Shown here one piece after another: positions 10,691 through 24,074 of a stretch of DNA of 36,307 bases; within the stretch, counting starts at the first letter, position 1; each line of letters begins with the position of its first letter. This DNA is from a virus. The stretch covers positions 1 through 36,307 of the IMG/VR virus record IMGVR_UViG_3300031857_000620, one strand, 5' to 3'. Under the pieces are notes generated by a model, which was given only the letters and a program-made list of their open reading frames with translations, was not told where the DNA came from and ran no database searches. The position numbers and the translations under genes were made by a program.

Positions 10691-10800
10691 ATAAAACAGA
10701 AAAGCCTTTATGTGCCGTTCCGGGTCGCAGTCCGTACTAGGCTCATAAAGGCAAAAAAAGATGAAAGATTTTCTGATGCTGCGACCCATCAGCCTTTCGG
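10691..10800 (-). ncRNA. Structured leader or small RNA with loop-loop complementarity and terminator
   Basis: An ORF-free stretch between a consensus promoter and a terminator-like hairpin, read on the minus strand. Hairpin a is GCC-GAAA-GGC (10801-10792). Hairpin b has stem CTGATG/CATCAG (10792-10787/10778-10773) and loop GGTCGCAG (10786-10779). Hairpin c pairs 10752-10740 with 10716-10704 (9 bp, one mismatch, 3 bp) and is followed by TTTTCTGTTTT. The loop of c contains CTGCGACCC (10730-10722), complementary to the whole loop of b. So an 8-9 bp kissing interaction is possible. It lies just before the replication operon, so it could be an attenuator or a separate RNA of about 110 nt. Confidence 0.65.
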
Positions 10801-10805
10801 CATTG

Positions 10806-10834
10806 CAAATATACTAAATTTTCATTTCTCCAAA
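10806..10834 (-). promoter_or_regulatory. Bacteroidetes-type promoter for the structured RNA and replication operon
   Basis: On the minus strand TTTG at 10834-10831 and TATATTTG at 10813-10806 are separated by 17 bp. The -33 element lies in the 3' end of the 93-aa gene. Transcription would start near 10800, at the first hairpin. Confidence 0.65.
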
Positions 10835-13675: not shown

Positions 13676-13686
13676 GATTATCTTTG
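13656..13686 (+). promoter_or_regulatory. Bacteroidetes-type promoter for the first HNH unit
   Basis: TTTG at 13656-13659 and TATCTTTG at 13679-13686 with a 19-bp spacer. Transcription would start near 13693, just before the 5' arm of the long stem. Confidence 0.8.
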
Positions 13687-13692
13687 CAAAGT

Positions 13693-13799
13693 AATAAACC
13701 AATGGACGAGATTGGTATAAGAAACTGGCAGCAATGCCACAACATAGCCTCAGATTGGAACGACTCGTCCTCGTTTTGATTTGGGGCTTTTGTTTTAAA
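13693..13799 (+). ncRNA. HNH-associated 5' RNA element, copy 1 (stem plus pseudoknot)
   Basis: The leader before the HNH start at 13800 holds GGACGAG (13704-13710), complementary to CTCGTCC (13764-13770). Inside it is a TGGCA-GCAA-TGCCA hairpin, then AGCCTC (13746-13751). AGCCTC can pair with GGGGCT (13783-13788) downstream of the stem, crossing it as an H-type pseudoknot. A spacer ending TTTTGATTT precedes GGGGC, and a T-rich run reaches the start codon. The same order of elements occurs before the second HNH gene at 20197, so a cis-acting regulatory RNA is likely. Confidence 0.65.
13702..13779 (+). CDS. Possible 25-aa leader peptide in the HNH leader
   Basis: An ATG at 13702, about 16 bases after the -7 element, opens a 25-codon frame (MDEIGIRNWQQCHNIASDWN...) with a TGA at 13777-13779. 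It covers both arms of the long stem and the inner strand of the pseudoknot, and it stops 3 bases before GGGGCT. Translating it would unfold the element, as in leader-peptide attenuation. The second copy has no equivalent separate ORF, so this may be chance. Confidence 0.3.
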   Translation: MDEIGIRNWQQCHNIASDWNDSSSF

Positions 13800-14375
13800 A
13801 TGGAAGAAATCTGGAAAAGTGTAAAAGGTTATGATGGCTTTTATGAAGTCTCAAACCAAGGCAGGGTAAGAAGTGTTGATCGGTTTGTGATGCAGGTATT
13901 GAATGGCGTTCAAACTAAATGTTCGTATAAAAGCAGGATGCTGAGATTTACTATTGACAAAGCCGGATACCCAATGGTAACACTTAGTGCATTGGGTAAG
14001 ATTAAGACATTTCGAATTCACCGATTAGTAGCCGATGTATTTATTGAAAACCCAGAAAGCAAAAAAACTGTGAACCACATCAATGCGATTAAAACAGATA
14101 ATCGAATTGAGAACCTTGAATGGGCAACACAGTTAGAAAATAATCAACACGCAATTAATAAGGGACTTGGGAAAAGAACTAACATAAAAGGTAAAGTAAG
14201 AAGAACCCCCATTTCTCAATTTACATTAGATGGAATATGGATTGCAGATTTTAAATCAATTGCAAGTGCTTCTGAAAAATATGGATACTCAGGTTGTTGT
14301 GTAGGTAGATGTGTTTCTGGCAAAACAAAAACATCTCATGGATTTTTATGGAAAGCAAAAGGGAGCCTGATTTAG
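13800..14375 (+). CDS. HNH homing endonuclease (NUMOD4-HNH-NUMOD1)
   Basis: A 191-aa free-standing homing endonuclease. NUMOD4 spans about residues 3-50 (EIWKSVKGYDGFYEVSNQGR). The HNH nuclease spans 73-117 with HRLVADVF and VNHINAIKTDNRIENLEW. NUMOD1 spans about 137-186 (PISQFTLDGIW, GFLWKAKG). Such enzymes cut DNA at specific sites and promote their own spread. The start at 13800 is the NUMOD4 start; an upstream in-frame ATG at 13734 lies inside the structured leader. The gene is more AT-rich than its neighbours and has its own promoter and terminator, a self-contained mobile unit. Confidence 0.9.
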   Translation: MEEIWKSVKGYDGFYEVSNQGRVRSVDRFVMQVLNGVQTKCSYKSRMLRFTIDKAGYPMVTLSALGKIKTFRIHRLVADVFIENPESKKTVNHINAIKTDNRIENLEWATQLENNQHAINKGLGKRTNIKGKVRRTPISQFTLDGIWIADFKSIASASEKYGYSGCCVGRCVSGKTKTSHGFLWKAKGSLI

Positions 14376-19319: not shown

Positions 19320-19506
19320 CCAGTACGGGGTTTACTATCCGAAAGGATTCATCCAAGGCGAAAAGGGCCGGATTATCAGTCAGGATTCGCAGGTTGTCGT
19401 TCTGGCAATTCATCCAGACGGCAATGTTGTGGTATGTCGATTTGGGGATTATCGGGATTCTATTATTACACATCAATCAAATTTATCAAAGTGGAAAGTC
19501 AAATAA
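19306..19506 (+). CDS. Hypothetical protein
   Basis: A 66-aa protein with strand-rich character (GRIISQDSQVVVLAIHPDGNVVVCRFGDY). It overlaps the previous gene by 14 bases and the glycosyltransferase start by 16. No family is recognised. Confidence 0.6.
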   Translation: MDSINQYGVYYPKGFIQGEKGRIISQDSQVVVLAIHPDGNVVVCRFGDYRDSIITHQSNLSKWKVK

Positions 19507-20177
19507 CAATAACTCTCACGTCCTGTGGTCGGTTTGACCTTTTAGAGAAAACAATTACATCAGTTGCTAAATTTTGGGATGGGCCGCCACCAATTGCATT
19601 TTTTATTAATGAAGATTCTGGATTGCCATTGCCAGTTGAGATTGGAGAGTTTATTGCATGGAAGTGGCCCGATTGCGAATACAAGGAATTTGCAGGATAC
19701 AAAAATCAGATTGCGGCAATTGACCGAATGTACAAGGAAGTTGAAACGCCTTATATAATGCATTTAGAATGCGACTGGGAGTTTTTCAAAACTGGATTCG
19801 TCCTGAAATCACTTTCGATTCTGGAAGAAAAGGCTCACATCATGCAAATATGGCTGAGAAGTCCCAATGACCGCAATGGTCACCCGGCAATTGGACAAGT
19901 TTTGACCACCGAGGACGGTGTAAAATATCAAATGATGAAGACGGGTTACAGAGGTGTCTGGAATGGCTTCAGTTTTAATTGTGGTCTACGCAGGTTATCC
20001 GATTACCAGAAACTTTTTCCGAATGGAATGTACGCTGATGTACATTGGTCACCATCAAACCCATTGCAAGCTGAACAGTTAGTTGGCAAGCAATACTTCA
20101 AACATGGATTCAGGGCCGCAACATTGTTGGAGGGCTTCTGCGTTCACACCGGAATTAACAGACATATTTCAGGATAA
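19491..20177 (+). CDS. Glycosyltransferase (GT-A fold), 3' end disrupted
   Basis: A 228-aa protein from a GTG start at 19491; the start would read VESQITITLTSCGRFDLLEK. The opening SQITITLTSCGRF is a GT-A beta strand followed by a phosphate-loop helix. HLECDWEFF in the middle is a likely metal-binding acidic site. The GTG was preferred because the frame upstream (to ATG 19434) lies inside the 66-aa gene. It now ends ...CVHTGINRHISG. An HNH element seems to have replaced its last residues: a matching open frame of 26 codons resumes at 20794. See the remnant. Confidence 0.8.
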   Translation: MESQITITLTSCGRFDLLEKTITSVAKFWDGPPPIAFFINEDSGLPLPVEIGEFIAWKWPDCEYKEFAGYKNQIAAIDRMYKEVETPYIMHLECDWEFFKTGFVLKSLSILEEKAHIMQIWLRSPNDRNGHPAIGQVLTTEDGVKYQMMKTGYRGVWNGFSFNCGLRRLSDYQKLFPNGMYADVHWSPSNPLQAEQLVGKQYFKHGFRAATLLEGFCVHTGINRHISG

Positions 20178-20184
20178 AATTTTG

Positions 20185-20192
20185 TATATTTG
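20185..20192 (+). promoter_or_regulatory. -7 element of the second HNH unit
   Basis: TATATTTG matches TAnnTTTG exactly. No clear TTG is found 17-23 bp upstream. The 5' arm of the long stem starts 5 bases later, at 20197, so the RNA would begin with the stem. Confidence 0.45.
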
Positions 20193-20196
20193 TATT

Positions 20197-20297
20197 GCTC
20201 GTCCGATATGAAAACATTCAAAAACCTTGCCCCTCTTGCATTGCCTATTCCTATTCAGGAGTCGGACGAGCCTTTGCATTTGGGGCAATCTTTTTTT
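20197..20297 (+). ncRNA. HNH-associated 5' RNA element, copy 2 (stem plus pseudoknot)
   Basis: GCTCGTCCGA (20197-20206) is the perfect complement of TCGGACGAGC (20262-20271). Inside the loop TTGCCCC (20227-20233) is complementary to GGGGCAA (20282-20288) beyond the stem, giving a pseudoknot. The spacer CTTTGCATTT precedes GGGG as in copy 1. It ends ATC plus seven T and then ATG at 20298. So the pseudoknot arm plus U tract resembles an intrinsic terminator right before the HNH start. The frame from an ATG at 20208 is open through into the HNH gene. Confidence 0.7.
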
Positions 20298-20786
20298 ATG
20301 GAAAATAAGGAAGAAATTTGGAAAAGCGTTGTCGGATATGAGGGGCTTTATGAAGTAAGTTCGTTTGGTAGAATTAGATCAAATTATCGACAAAAACGGA
20401 TTTTAAGACCTCAAAAAGGAACAAAATACTATCATGTCAGGTTGAGTAAAGACAAGATAATTTCTATTCATAATCTTCACAGGTTGATTGCTTTAACATT
20501 TAAAGAAAATCCTGAAAATAAAAAAACTGTTAATCACATTGATGGAAATCCTTATAATAATGCTGAATGGAATTTAGAATGGGCAACATACTATGAAAAT
20601 ACCATGCATAAAATCAATGTATTAAATTATGGAAGTCGGGCAAATCATCCAAGGGCATTATTGACCGAAAAAGATGTTGCAGAAATTAGAAATACTACAT
20701 TGTCAAATAATGATCTGGCTTTGAAATTTTGTGTTTCAAAAGACTGTATTTACAAAATTAGGCGTAATATTAATTGGAAGTCTTAA
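20298..20786 (+). CDS. HNH homing endonuclease (NUMOD4-HNH, C-terminal DNA-binding helix)
   Basis: A 162-aa free-standing endonuclease. NUMOD4 spans about residues 6-48 (EIWKSVVGYEGLYEVSSFGR). The HNH part spans 60-100 (HRLIALTF, KKTVNHIDGNPYNNAEWNLEW). The C-terminus (LTEKDVAEIRNTTLSNNDLA, then KIRRNINWKS) resembles a helix-turn-helix DNA reader and differs from the NUMOD1 end of the first HNH protein. The start at 20298 is the NUMOD4 start; an earlier in-frame ATG at 20208 lies in the structured leader. AT-rich codon use and the missing partner sequence around it support recent transfer. Confidence 0.9.
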   Translation: MENKEEIWKSVVGYEGLYEVSSFGRIRSNYRQKRILRPQKGTKYYHVRLSKDKIISIHNLHRLIALTFKENPENKKTVNHIDGNPYNNAEWNLEWATYYENTMHKINVLNYGSRANHPRALLTEKDVAEIRNTTLSNNDLALKFCVSKDCIYKIRRNINWKS

Positions 20787-20793
20787 CAACTAT

Positions 20794-20874
20794 TCATCCA
20801 TGTACTCCAGGATGTTTACATCTAACTTTCCAGAACATAAAGACTTTTTTGAACAACGAATATTGAAATCATGA
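20794..20874 (+). pseudogene. 3' remnant of the glycosyltransferase gene
   Basis: This frame (SSMYSRMFTSNFPEHKDFFE...) stays open for 26 codons and ends TGA at 20872-20874, in an ATGA overlap with the next gene's ATG at 20871. All other genes in this island overlap in the same way, so it is most simply the original end of the glycosyltransferase at 19491. Joined to GINRH at 20165, it reads GINRHSSMYSRMF... in frame. An independent 24-aa ORF from ATG 20800 is a less likely reading. Confidence 0.6.
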
Positions 20875-21551
20875 AAATCCTTTATAAGGTCACTTCGAAA
20901 TCAAGGCCCGACAATCTCAAACGAACATTGCTGAACATTCAGACAATGGCAGTCAATCCCGATTACCTGATCTGTTTGACCTTGGATGAAAATGATTATA
21001 CGGTCAATAATCCAGAATTCAAAGAATGGATTAATCAGAACTTTTTTATTGAAATGCATTCTTTTTACGGCAAATCAAGAAACAAGATTGATGCGATTAA
21101 TCGAGATTTAGAACATTTCACCCATTGGGATATTCTGGTCAATGTTTCGGATGATCAGGTTTTCACGATTAAAGGATTCGACAAGACCATTGAAGACGCA
21201 TTCATGTTCAAAGGTGACACGGATCTGTTTTTGCACTTTCGTGACACGAACCATCATTTGCCCGGCAATGCACTATCAACCCTTTCAATCATTGGACGGG
21301 ATTACTTCAACCGGGATGGGTACATTTATCATCCGTCTTATAAGAGTGTCTGGTGCGATAATGAAGCTACTGAGGTCGCAAAGCAACGAGGATGTCACAG
21401 GTTCATTTCTGAGCCTATCTTTGACCATCTGCACCCGGCATACGGTAAGGCTCCGGCCGATCAATTGTCACGGAAAACAGAAAGCCCAAGTCTGCACAAG
21501 ATTGATCATTCAAATTTTATCAAACGTCAAAAACAAGGATTTCCAAAATGA
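20871..21551 (+). CDS. Glycosyltransferase-like protein
   Basis: A 226-aa protein with a GT-A-like start (KILYKVTSKSRPDNLKRTLLN) and an SDDQ acidic motif at residues 93-96 (DILVNVSDDQVF), a plausible nucleotide-sugar metal site. The C-terminal part has a His/Trp-rich stretch (YKSVWCDNEATEVAKQRG, FDHLHPAYG). The function, transfer of a sugar to a virion or cell-surface acceptor, is inferred from fold and neighbours. It overlaps the next gene by ATGA. Confidence 0.75.
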   Translation: MKILYKVTSKSRPDNLKRTLLNIQTMAVNPDYLICLTLDENDYTVNNPEFKEWINQNFFIEMHSFYGKSRNKIDAINRDLEHFTHWDILVNVSDDQVFTIKGFDKTIEDAFMFKGDTDLFLHFRDTNHHLPGNALSTLSIIGRDYFNRDGYIYHPSYKSVWCDNEATEVAKQRGCHRFISEPIFDHLHPAYGKAPADQLSRKTESPSLHKIDHSNFIKRQKQGFPK

Positions 21552-22165
21552 TATTTTCGCAAAACAACGAGCAGGAAGTTATCCTGGATTACTTCAAGAA
21601 TCAACCGGAAGGATGTTTTCTTGACATTGGGGCCAATGATGGGCAGACTTTATCAAATAGTCGGGCATTGGCCTTGTCTGGTTGGTCTGGCGTATGTGTT
21701 GAACCTGCACCTGATCCATTCCAGAAACTTGAAACACTTTACGATGGCTCAAAGGTTCTGGTCTTCGAATGTGCAATTGGCAAGGAAAACGGTAAAATGC
21801 CTTTTCACATTTCAGGCAGTCACTTACACAAGGGCGATTCTGGTTTACTATCCACTCTTGAACCGGATGAGATGAAACGATGGCAAGGAACAGAGCAATT
21901 TGTCGAATCAGAGGTTGATGTACTTACATGGCCGTCCTTTTATGCCGGATGTAGTGTTAAGACATTTGATTTCATTTCGATTGATGCTGAAGGTCTGGAT
22001 TTCTTTATTTTGAAAGAAATGAACTTGAAAGAAATGGCAACTAAACTGGTTTGTGTTGAATACAATTCAAACAAAATGATGAAATCGGCTTTTCATTCAA
22101 TTTTTACCCACTTCGGGATGAGACCAATTCACACCAACTTTGAGAACCTGATTTATGGATTGTAA
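21548..22165 (+). CDS. FkbM-family methyltransferase
   Basis: A 205-aa SAM-dependent methyltransferase of the FkbM type. Motif I FLDIGANDGQT spans 24-34 and the acidic GVCVEPAP follows at 48-55. The typical FkbM segment DFISIDAEGLDFFIL spans 141-155. FkbM enzymes methylate hydroxyls of sugars or small molecules, so this one may methylate a sugar added by the neighbouring glycosyltransferases. It overlaps its neighbours on both sides (4 and 11 bases). Confidence 0.9.
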   Translation: MIFSQNNEQEVILDYFKNQPEGCFLDIGANDGQTLSNSRALALSGWSGVCVEPAPDPFQKLETLYDGSKVLVFECAIGKENGKMPFHISGSHLHKGDSGLLSTLEPDEMKRWQGTEQFVESEVDVLTWPSFYAGCSVKTFDFISIDAEGLDFFILKEMNLKEMATKLVCVEYNSNKMMKSAFHSIFTHFGMRPIHTNFENLIYGL

Positions 22166-22751
22166 ATTATCAATCCTTATTCCGTCCACTATTGACCGAA
22201 AACGAATGACGGATTTACTGGTTGAAAATGTCCAGAATCAGATTAATGATTTGGGCGTTGCTGATCAGGTTGAAATTATTGTGGACATGGACAACAAAGA
22301 AGTCTCAATAGGCTTTAAACGCCAGAGGATGCACGTAAAAGCCAAAGGTGAATATGTTGTGTCAATTGATTCAGATGATGCGGTAATGACCGATTATCTG
22401 ACTGAAATATGGAGAGGAATAAAAGAACAACCAGACTGCATAACCTTTGAGATTTCTTGTTCTGGAACCAAAGGTAAAAGGGCCAATGTTAGCAATAATT
22501 ACCCCGATTGGATGGATGGTATAGATGGTTATGATTACGTCAGAACACCTTATCACAAAGTACCAATCAAGCGTTCTATTGCTTTGCAAATTGGGTTTAT
22601 TGACCTGAGATACGGTGAAGATTATGACTTTTCAAAAAGGCTCAAAAAGTCTGGATTAATCAAAACAGAATACCACATTTGCAAACCATTGTATCATTAT
22701 CAATATCGAAACGCACCTTTCAGAGTAAAGTATGGATTTGACCGAAAATAA
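22155..22751 (+). CDS. Glycosyltransferase family 2 protein
   Basis: A 198-aa GT2 protein. KLSILIPSTIDRKRMTDLL opens the GT-A fold (4-22), an acidic DSDD motif lies at residues 72-75 (YVVSIDSDDAV), and a catalytic-base-like YGEDYDFSKRL follows at about 165. This is a short GT2 that lacks a C-terminal membrane region, so it is probably soluble. It overlaps the FkbM gene by 11 bases and the next gene by 20 bases. Confidence 0.85.
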   Translation: MDCKLSILIPSTIDRKRMTDLLVENVQNQINDLGVADQVEIIVDMDNKEVSIGFKRQRMHVKAKGEYVVSIDSDDAVMTDYLTEIWRGIKEQPDCITFEISCSGTKGKRANVSNNYPDWMDGIDGYDYVRTPYHKVPIKRSIALQIGFIDLRYGEDYDFSKRLKKSGLIKTEYHICKPLYHYQYRNAPFRVKYGFDRK

Positions 22752-23412
22752 GCCCGTTATTATTAACGCTTGTGTTGGTGGTGGTTGGTATGGGGCCGGA
22801 ACTGATAGGCTAGTCAGAAGCTTGAATCAAGTTGGTTGGGCCGGAACTATTTTGACTTGGAAAAACCAATGGCCTAATGATGAATTCCCGAAGGATTCAA
22901 ATTATCATGTCAAGTGTTCGGCATTCATGGAAGCAATTAACCAAGGGTTCACTCACATCCTTTGGTGTGATTCGTCTGTTTGGGCTTTGAATGATCCAAT
23001 GACGATTTTTGACATCATTGATGAGCAAGGTTTTTTCTTTTGGTCATCTGGTTACAATTGCGCTCAGACTTGTAATGATTTTAGCTTAGAGTACTTCAAG
23101 CTAAATCGTAATAAAGTAGAAAGTTGGCCTGATCTTGCAACTGGAATCTTTGGCGTAAATCTTCAAAACGCAAAAGGTAGAGAGTTTATTCATAGATGGA
23201 TGAAGGCTTGTCATGATGGGGTGTTCAGAGGTTCAAGAAACCATGATAATCAAAGTTCCGACCCTAGGTTTCTTTTTCACCGTCAGGATCAATCAGCCGC
23301 TTCTTTACTGGCATCCATTCTTGAAATGCCTCCAATGGATCAAAATTCACTTTTAGGTTATTATCGCAAGGATATGCCAGATTCATGGGTATTTACTTTA
23401 AGAGGAATATGA
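22732..23412 (+). CDS. Glycosyltransferase-like protein
   Basis: A 226-aa protein beginning MDLTENKPVIINACVGGGWY, with a GT-like Gly-rich start and ILWCDSSVWAL at about residues 76-86, where a DxD-like acidic site would sit. The C-terminal part has HRQDQSAASLLASIL. It resembles GT-A enzymes, but I cannot name the family with confidence. Its ATG lies inside the previous gene and it overlaps the next by ATGA. Confidence 0.7.
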   Translation: MDLTENKPVIINACVGGGWYGAGTDRLVRSLNQVGWAGTILTWKNQWPNDEFPKDSNYHVKCSAFMEAINQGFTHILWCDSSVWALNDPMTIFDIIDEQGFFFWSSGYNCAQTCNDFSLEYFKLNRNKVESWPDLATGIFGVNLQNAKGREFIHRWMKACHDGVFRGSRNHDNQSSDPRFLFHRQDQSAASLLASILEMPPMDQNSLLGYYRKDMPDSWVFTLRGI

Positions 23413-24074
23413 AATTGATAATTCAATCAAAAGATACTCCCCATTACCGTTCACATGGATTTGGGGCTTTAATGAATAAGGCATTGCGCCTTTGTTGGTT
23501 GCACTTTGAGCAATATGGCAACTGGAATATTGAGTTTCAGGATTATCAATTGGAAGACCTTTTTACAAACCCTGCATTTGGAGAATCAGAATTTTATGTA
23601 AAGGATTTGATTTGGGATGGTGATGGTCCAAAAGATATTGATAAAAACAGATTAGCTTTTGAGAGTTGTTTTAGAGATAGATGCCTACTACCAAATACAA
23701 TGGGCGTTTATGATTGGATAGGCGTTCATGCCAGAGGAACCGACAAAGCGACCGAATGCGAATTGGTCAGTATTAAAACTATTTGCCAACATATTAATAA
23801 ATTTAACGATAGAATATTTTTGGCAACTGAAGACCAAAATCGGTTTTTAAAATTAAAAGCGATTTATGGTAAGCAAATTGTTTCATCTTTTCCAACTAAT
23901 TTAAGTCATCATGTAGTTGGGGAAAAAAGATTAAAAATAAATAAAGACGCATACGTTGATGCTAGAATTCTATCTCAGTCTAAAGTATTTCTTGCGTGTA
24001 ATTCAAACCTTTCAGAACTTGCCAAGGCAATGAGGCATCCAGATTTACCAATAATTGATATGCAAATCCTTTAG
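23409..24074 (+). CDS. Fucosyltransferase-like protein (HxRGxD motif)
   Basis: A 221-aa protein with IGVHARGTDK at residues 104-113, matching the HxRxxD motif of GT11/GT23-type fucosyltransferases that bind GDP-fucose. The C-terminal NSNLSELAKAM is in the place of the family's conserved S/T-E-L end. The start at 23409 gives the ATGA overlap with the previous gene; 23385 adds eight residues (MGIYFKRN) inside that gene. The substrate is unknown. Confidence 0.75.
   Translation: MKLIIQSKDTPHYRSHGFGALMNKALRLCWLHFEQYGNWNIEFQDYQLEDLFTNPAFGESEFYVKDLIWDGDGPKDIDKNRLAFESCFRDRCLLPNTMGVYDWIGVHARGTDKATECELVSIKTICQHINKFNDRIFLATEDQNRFLKLKAIYGKQIVSSFPTNLSHHVVGEKRLKINKDAYVDARILSQSKVFLACNSNLSELAKAMRHPDLPIIDMQIL

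Follow-up and report, generated by a model that had tools for sequence, protein, structure and literature searches.

A short RNA that leads the replication operon of a phage carries two hairpins with complementary loops, the second hairpin being terminator-like, and this leader is conserved among relatives, with covariation in the first hairpin (H1), in the loop-loop (kissing) helix and in the terminator. Since the pairing persists in dozens of other phages although its letters change, the element very probably represents a kind of on/off leader for early phage genes that has not been described before. If so, an RNA-only switch stands before replication initiation in many uncultured phages; the one known relative of a kissing-hairpin terminator of this kind senses guanidine. 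The DNA analysed, hereafter the window, is the whole stretch of 36,307 nucleotides, positions 1-36,307 of IMG/VR virus record IMGVR_UViG_3300031857_000620. Its host probably belongs to the phylum Bacteroidota, as judged from the promoter type rather than from a host record.

Anatomy of the leader and of its operon

An earlier note on this DNA had described an ORF-free RNA running from a promoter to a terminator and carrying complementary loops. All of these elements were found on the minus strand (Table 1), and the RNA strand is indeed free of ORFs. The consensus promoter named there was confirmed only in its -7 element, whereas the possible -33 box, TTTG at 10834-10831 (minus), lies at a short spacing of 17 and is not conserved in relatives. 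The TAnnTTTG element was part of the search pattern that gave 59 matching stretches; it also precedes four leaders (L139, L146, L013 and L100) that were found without TAnnTTTG in the pattern. It is followed directly by CAAU and then by the GCC-GAAA-GGC hairpin. Since the scan required GCCGAAAGGC, this 5' element is present in all scan-derived leaders; a longer variant, GCCGAAAGGATCGGC, occurs in L156, a leader found independently.

Table 1. Positions of the leader elements, downstream genes and further leaders in the window.
Feature	Positions	Strand	Basis or remark
-7 element TATATTTG, Bacteroidota-type promoter	10813-10806	minus	sequence
Leader RNA, class A, ~109 nt	10805-10697	minus	covariance model R1
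5' element GCCGAAAGGC, small GNRA hairpin GCC-GAAA-GGC	10792..10801	minus	common to search-derived leaders
Hairpin H1, 8-nt loop GGUCGCAG = element E5	10773..10792; loop 10786-10779 (GGTCGCAG)	minus	sequence, fold, covariation
Putative terminator hairpin: 9-bp stem, UAGUA/GAAC internal loop, 3-bp apical stem, 8-nt loop ACUGCGAC	10704..10752	minus	sequence, fold, covariation
Element E3 CUGCGACCC, complement of E5 in terminator loop	10722..10730	minus	sequence, relatives' 7-bp loop-loop helix
U-rich terminator tract	10693..10703	minus	sequence
Variable first gene, 79 aa	10443..10682	minus	ORF starts 10682
Initiator/primosomal-type protein, 226 aa	9770..10450	minus	PHROG matches
DnaB-like replicative helicase, 446 aa	8433..9773	minus	Pfam DnaB_C E 2e-84
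Probable second leader: TATCTTTG, hairpin loop UGGACGAGA	13679..13795	plus	layout recurs in L251
Third leader: -7 element TATATTTG, 5' element GCUCGUCCGA (20197-20206)	20185..20297	plus	shuffle p 0.004

A U-rich linker of 20 nt joins H1 to the putative terminator hairpin, whose arms GCCTTTATG / CATAAAGGC (10752-10744 / 10712-10704) are followed by TTTTCTGTTTT. The UAGUA/GAA internal loop of this hairpin, conserved across the relatives of class A (see below), may resemble a loop-E (sarcin-ricin) motif. The 9-nt match claimed earlier between the 8-nt loop of H1 and the terminator loop proved to be an exact complement on the minus strand, GGGTCGCAG (10787-10779) facing CTGCGACCC (10730-10722). 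None of 200 dinucleotide shuffles folded as stably as the window leader (z = -2.6).

The identification of a DnaB gene downstream was upheld (Table 1). The name DnaD-like, formerly given to the 226-aa protein, is weakly supported: Pfam had no match, and of two PHROG matches phrog_9327 (E 0.003) is a primosomal protein and phrog_21472 (E 1e-6) is unknown. Across the relatives the order was the leader, 0-1 variable small gene, the initiator-type protein and, in most cases, either DnaB or a primase/helicase-type protein of 620-650 aa. The variable first gene is absent in some relatives and replaced by other small genes in others, and almost all leaders are followed by an initiator-type gene; single linkage places 55 such sequences in one cluster. 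The RNA heads the replication operon, and it is present in each of the 10 close DnaB relatives that have enough sequence upstream. No leader was detected by our descriptor (see below) in the distant Cellulophaga phage phi39:1, whose helicase homologue is 38% identical. In 39/39 distinct leaders the predicted intrinsic terminator lies between the promoter and the first start codon of the operon, as in an attenuator, and the distance from the end of its stem to the start codon is 0-34 nt (median 11).

Covariation and spread among relatives

Relatives were gathered through homologues of both replication proteins and through a scan for TANNTTTGCNNNGCCGAAAGGC, which together provided ~57 contigs with the layout of the window; 2 of the 59 scan stretches (L181 and L194) look like chance. 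They fall into two main classes, A and B, which have the 5' element in common, and class A resembles the window. Both sets were collected through this one 5' motif, whose own conservation is therefore not judgeable from them. In class B the terminator loop bears an additional hairpin, and the loop word (U)UGCGACC of this class faces GGUCGCA in the terminator loop.

In the window alone the complementarity is modestly unusual, 1.5% of shuffles matching or exceeding it when G-U pairs are allowed. The relatives provided much stronger evidence. Among the 19 distinct leaders of class A, the 7 loop-loop pairs were paired in 100% of cells, compared with 39-48% for slid pairings, and the named structure formed in 99.3% of cells; the sequences of each class are related, so that these cells are not independent events. 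Changes on both sides affected 4/7 pairs of the kissing helix, one-sided changes none, and 0 shuffles reached the observed score. Double changes were also present in 4/5 pairs of the H1 stem. The class A words spanned by the double changes are distinct (GGUCGCAG, GGUCACAG, GGUAGGAG, GGUAGCAG, AGUAGAGG and AGUAGCGG). Class B (12 distinct leaders), with the same limit on the independence of cells, gave 98.8% paired for its 7 loop-loop pairs and double changes in 4/7. The kissing proposed earlier is thus kept by compensatory change in both classes, and it is this covariation, beyond the modest signal of the single sequence, that shows the pairing to be real.

The descriptor combined a promoter, a terminator and an 8-nt complement, with reversed and complemented words as controls. 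It returned 16 true matches against 0 and 0 controls among the DnaD/DnaB relatives, and 50 against 12 and 3 in the GCCGAAAGGC set, which is redundant. A chance origin of the pairing was rejected on these controls together with the covariation in classes A and B, despite the modest significance in the single sequence.

The same principle, with other words, occurs in leaders that lack GCCGAAAGGC, six of them seen by inspection (L123, L139, L146, L147, L156 and L158) and five recovered by the descriptor (L124, L134, L140, L159 and L178). In a 5'-terminal form, the partner of the terminator loop lies at the extreme 5' end and not in a hairpin (window leader 3, L124, L134 and L163); L163 has a 12-bp match behind a sigma70-like promoter (shuffle p 0.002), and a similar 5'-terminal complement in L142 was not significant (shuffle p 0.66). 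L224 and L226 have a third type of leader, with a GCCGAAAGGC start and no clear loop-loop complement.

The exact word pair of the window was present in 120 contigs, mostly as chance matches. Nine of these contigs combined hairpin and terminator, whereas neither an arbitrary word of like shape nor a non-complementary control gave any such case (0 each); since the arbitrary word gave 0, word use is not uniform. Among these nine are leaders that precede initiators in unrelated phages (L003, which has a Shine-Dalgarno-like AGGAG, and L013/L016), HNH-type genes (L025 and L100) and a Mom-like gene (L059).

The check proposed earlier, a search of Rfam and with a covariance model, was answered in two ways. 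At the gathering score Rfam matched neither the window nor any of 15 loci, and up to E 10 it gave nothing credible. Covariance model R1, built from class A, fits the window at 96.2 bits (E 8e-19, the window sequence being in its training set), and the relatives covary. Isolate phages gave no significant DNA match for the leaders, and no description of such a leader was found in the openly accessible literature. A host origin was rejected, with 0 leaders in 395 Bacteroidota genomes (a search without positive control) and no structured match in GTDB contigs. The 5' element GCCGAAAGGC does occur directly after TAnnTTTGC before cellular Bacteroidota genes (L241, L244 and L248), there without the remainder of the leader.

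Further leaders in the window and leader turnover

The window contains a clear third leader and, probably, a second one, each before a NUMOD4/HNH gene. In the second, with its terminator at 13746-13788 and the gene at 13800, CUCGUCC (13764-13770) in the terminator loop faces the hairpin loop GGACGAG, a 7-bp complementarity that is not significant alone (shuffle p 0.57). In the third, with its terminator at 20227-20288 and the gene at 20298, loop UCGGACGAGC (20262-20271) pairs with GCUCGUCCGA. The earlier suggestion of control over replication genes fits the position of the main leader, but the device is not specific to replication, since related layouts precede these HNH endonuclease genes. 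The third leader also precedes different HNH genes in other contigs. In L256, L257, L259 and L260 one HNH leader was seen on several HNH endonuclease genes, as if a promoter-leader cassette moves. Leaders 2 and 3 have the word pair GGACGAG/CTCGTCC in common with roles swapped, and so could pair mutually. The HNH gene at 20298 interrupts a run of genes of ~200-250 aa at 19434-24074 (plus), some of them glycosyltransferase-like by eye.

Leaders can differ strongly between nearly identical surroundings. Between L124 and L134, identity is 94% upstream and 97% downstream of the leader, whereas the leaders themselves are 57% identical and have wholly different words. Within the window lineage, the upstream sequence of contigs that share the gene is 87-98% identical to the window, and the part of the leader behind the 5' element retains 25-44% identity wherever the leader type differs. 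Such a pattern indicates that the leader is exchanged or rewritten at a higher rate than the sequence around it, and why phages do so while retaining the surrounding genes is a question that this leader offers a means to test.

Possible modes of action

The stem of the putative terminator, which is probably functional, ends ~11 nt before the start codon, and genes so near would otherwise be promoterless. This argues for a conditional terminator, and attenuation in cis as such is likely. On balance, and with less assurance, we favour a kissing-hairpin transcription attenuator that acts in cis on early phage genes and leads the replication operon in the window. RNA polymerase would start at the TAnnTTTG promoter and make H1, with loop E5, before the terminator hairpin with loop E3; kissing of E5 and E3 in the emerging RNA could then precede synthesis of the 3' arm of the terminator. 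Without kissing, the terminator would form and the replication genes would be off. A ligand, a protein, a ribosome or another RNA might provide the trigger; no ligand-like conserved core was common to the leader classes.

The closest known mechanism is that of the guanidine-IV (mepA/GGAM-1) riboswitch, in which the loop of a 5' hairpin likewise kisses the loop of an intrinsic terminator directly before the start codon. Its kissing hinders completion of the terminator and raises read-through (PMC11611296), and its discoverers proposed that the rigid kissing structure stretches the linker and causes steric strain (PMC7736828). The phage leaders have both of its hallmarks, loop-loop pairing and a second hairpin that is an intrinsic terminator before a gene, but their words change freely, with compensation on the other side. 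They precede genes for initiators, helicases and HNH endonucleases as well as a Mom-like gene, and no guanidine export genes. For the guanidine-IV consensus, neither the window nor the 15 loci reached the gathering score of any Rfam family, and no match was listed to E 10, although Rfam 15 may not contain the family. From this geometry we adopted read-through as the likeliest outcome of kissing, so that kissing would oppose rather than help the predicted terminator; this sign is tentative. The earlier proposal that the pairing replaces the terminator stem did not survive: the pairing uses the terminator loop and leaves the stem in place, so any antitermination would be steric. No conserved antiterminator strand pairing with the terminator arms was found across the leaders. 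A candidate seen by eye in class A, 5' AAAGG with the terminator arm CCUUU, was rejected because it is not conserved in the other classes.

The opposite sign is a serious rival, though an unlikely one. With a linker of ~20 nt, kissing and the full stem are compatible on paper, so that kissing could also aid termination or be neutral. H1 would then hold a weak apical hairpin and ensure timely folding, and masking of E5 by a ribosome, a protein or an RNA would turn the genes on. The apical 3-bp stem with its 8-nt loop is indeed marginal alone (-0.4 to -2.6 kcal/mol), and the 5'-terminal leaders have E5 directly before an AUG, with a frame open through the terminator. However, the basal stems are strong without kissing (hairpin median -24 kcal/mol), and class A has no conserved leader ORF. 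The leader is well suited to testing how contact between two loops governs termination.

RNA immunity or dose control in trans is less probable still. A terminated leader would pair with nascent leaders of the same word and shut off the replication operons of co-infecting relatives, the words defining immunity groups, much as for P4 CI RNA. Trans action would explain fast turnover, such as the abrupt changes between near-identical flanks in L124/L134 and in the window lineage, and the swapped word GGACGAG/CTCGTCC in window leaders 2 and 3 is consistent with it. There is a precedent in P4, whose replication genes are under RNA-directed leader termination (PMC4825925); the c4 RNA family (RF01695; PMC2864571) had no Rfam match in the window or at the 15 loci. 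Like the P4 CI RNA/seqA-seqC leader, the phage leader is untranslated and self-complementary, lies ahead of replication genes and probably has its termination governed by RNA pairing. It differs in having no separate processed CI RNA and a single complement, inside the terminator loop, instead of two target sites, the word having no exact 9-nt match elsewhere in the window except in the terminator loop. Furthermore, intramolecular pairing should outcompete pairing in trans, and many unrelated class A phages have the word GGUAGGAG in common, which does not resemble a fast-diversifying specificity. No separate antisense RNA was found, nor was there a TTTG-N18-21-TAnnTTTG promoter match on the opposite strand near the element. 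We also consider improbable the broader view of a widespread phage RNA recognition, in which portable promoter-leader cassettes with exchangeable 7-10-nt word pairs would give specificity to dose control or superinfection immunity by RNA, with replication and homing-endonuclease genes as the objects of control.

Antisense-controlled plasmid systems differ from the cis attenuator that we favour in the origin of the partner. In pT181/pIP501-type attenuation, which likewise combines a terminator in a replication-initiator leader with loop-loop RNA contacts, the partner is a separate antisense RNA, whereas that of the phage leader is in the same transcript. Control of the ColE1 RNAI/RNAII or CopA/CopT type, cited in the earlier note, is disfavoured on similar grounds, both partners being on one strand and in one transcript with a terminator ~11 nt before the start codon.

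Very unlikely is a put-like element, in which the folded leader would bind RNA polymerase so that this and later terminators are ignored. HK022 putRNA is a precedent for a two-hairpin RNA in a phage early leader (PMC9378689) that acts on elongation, and the conserved 5' GNRA hairpin and loop-E-like motif could form a binding surface. No sequence core is common to all leader classes, however, and the leader ends in its own terminator. HK022 put has neither kissing with a terminator loop nor a terminator of its own. Least likely is an independent, stable sRNA that regulates other targets in trans and only happens to adjoin the operon: it would fit the own promoter and terminator, but the terminator is always immediately followed by a start codon, the genes behind it would be promoterless and the words are too variable for a fixed target.

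A leader peptide as a general feature was rejected, open frames being present in most class B and 5'-terminal leaders and absent from class A. In class B and the 5'-terminal leaders, a frame of ~28-29 codons (MK...) starts in the linker and stays open through the terminator (L184 520, L213, L220, L234, L124 2684 and window 20185), and is sometimes in frame with the HNH gene.
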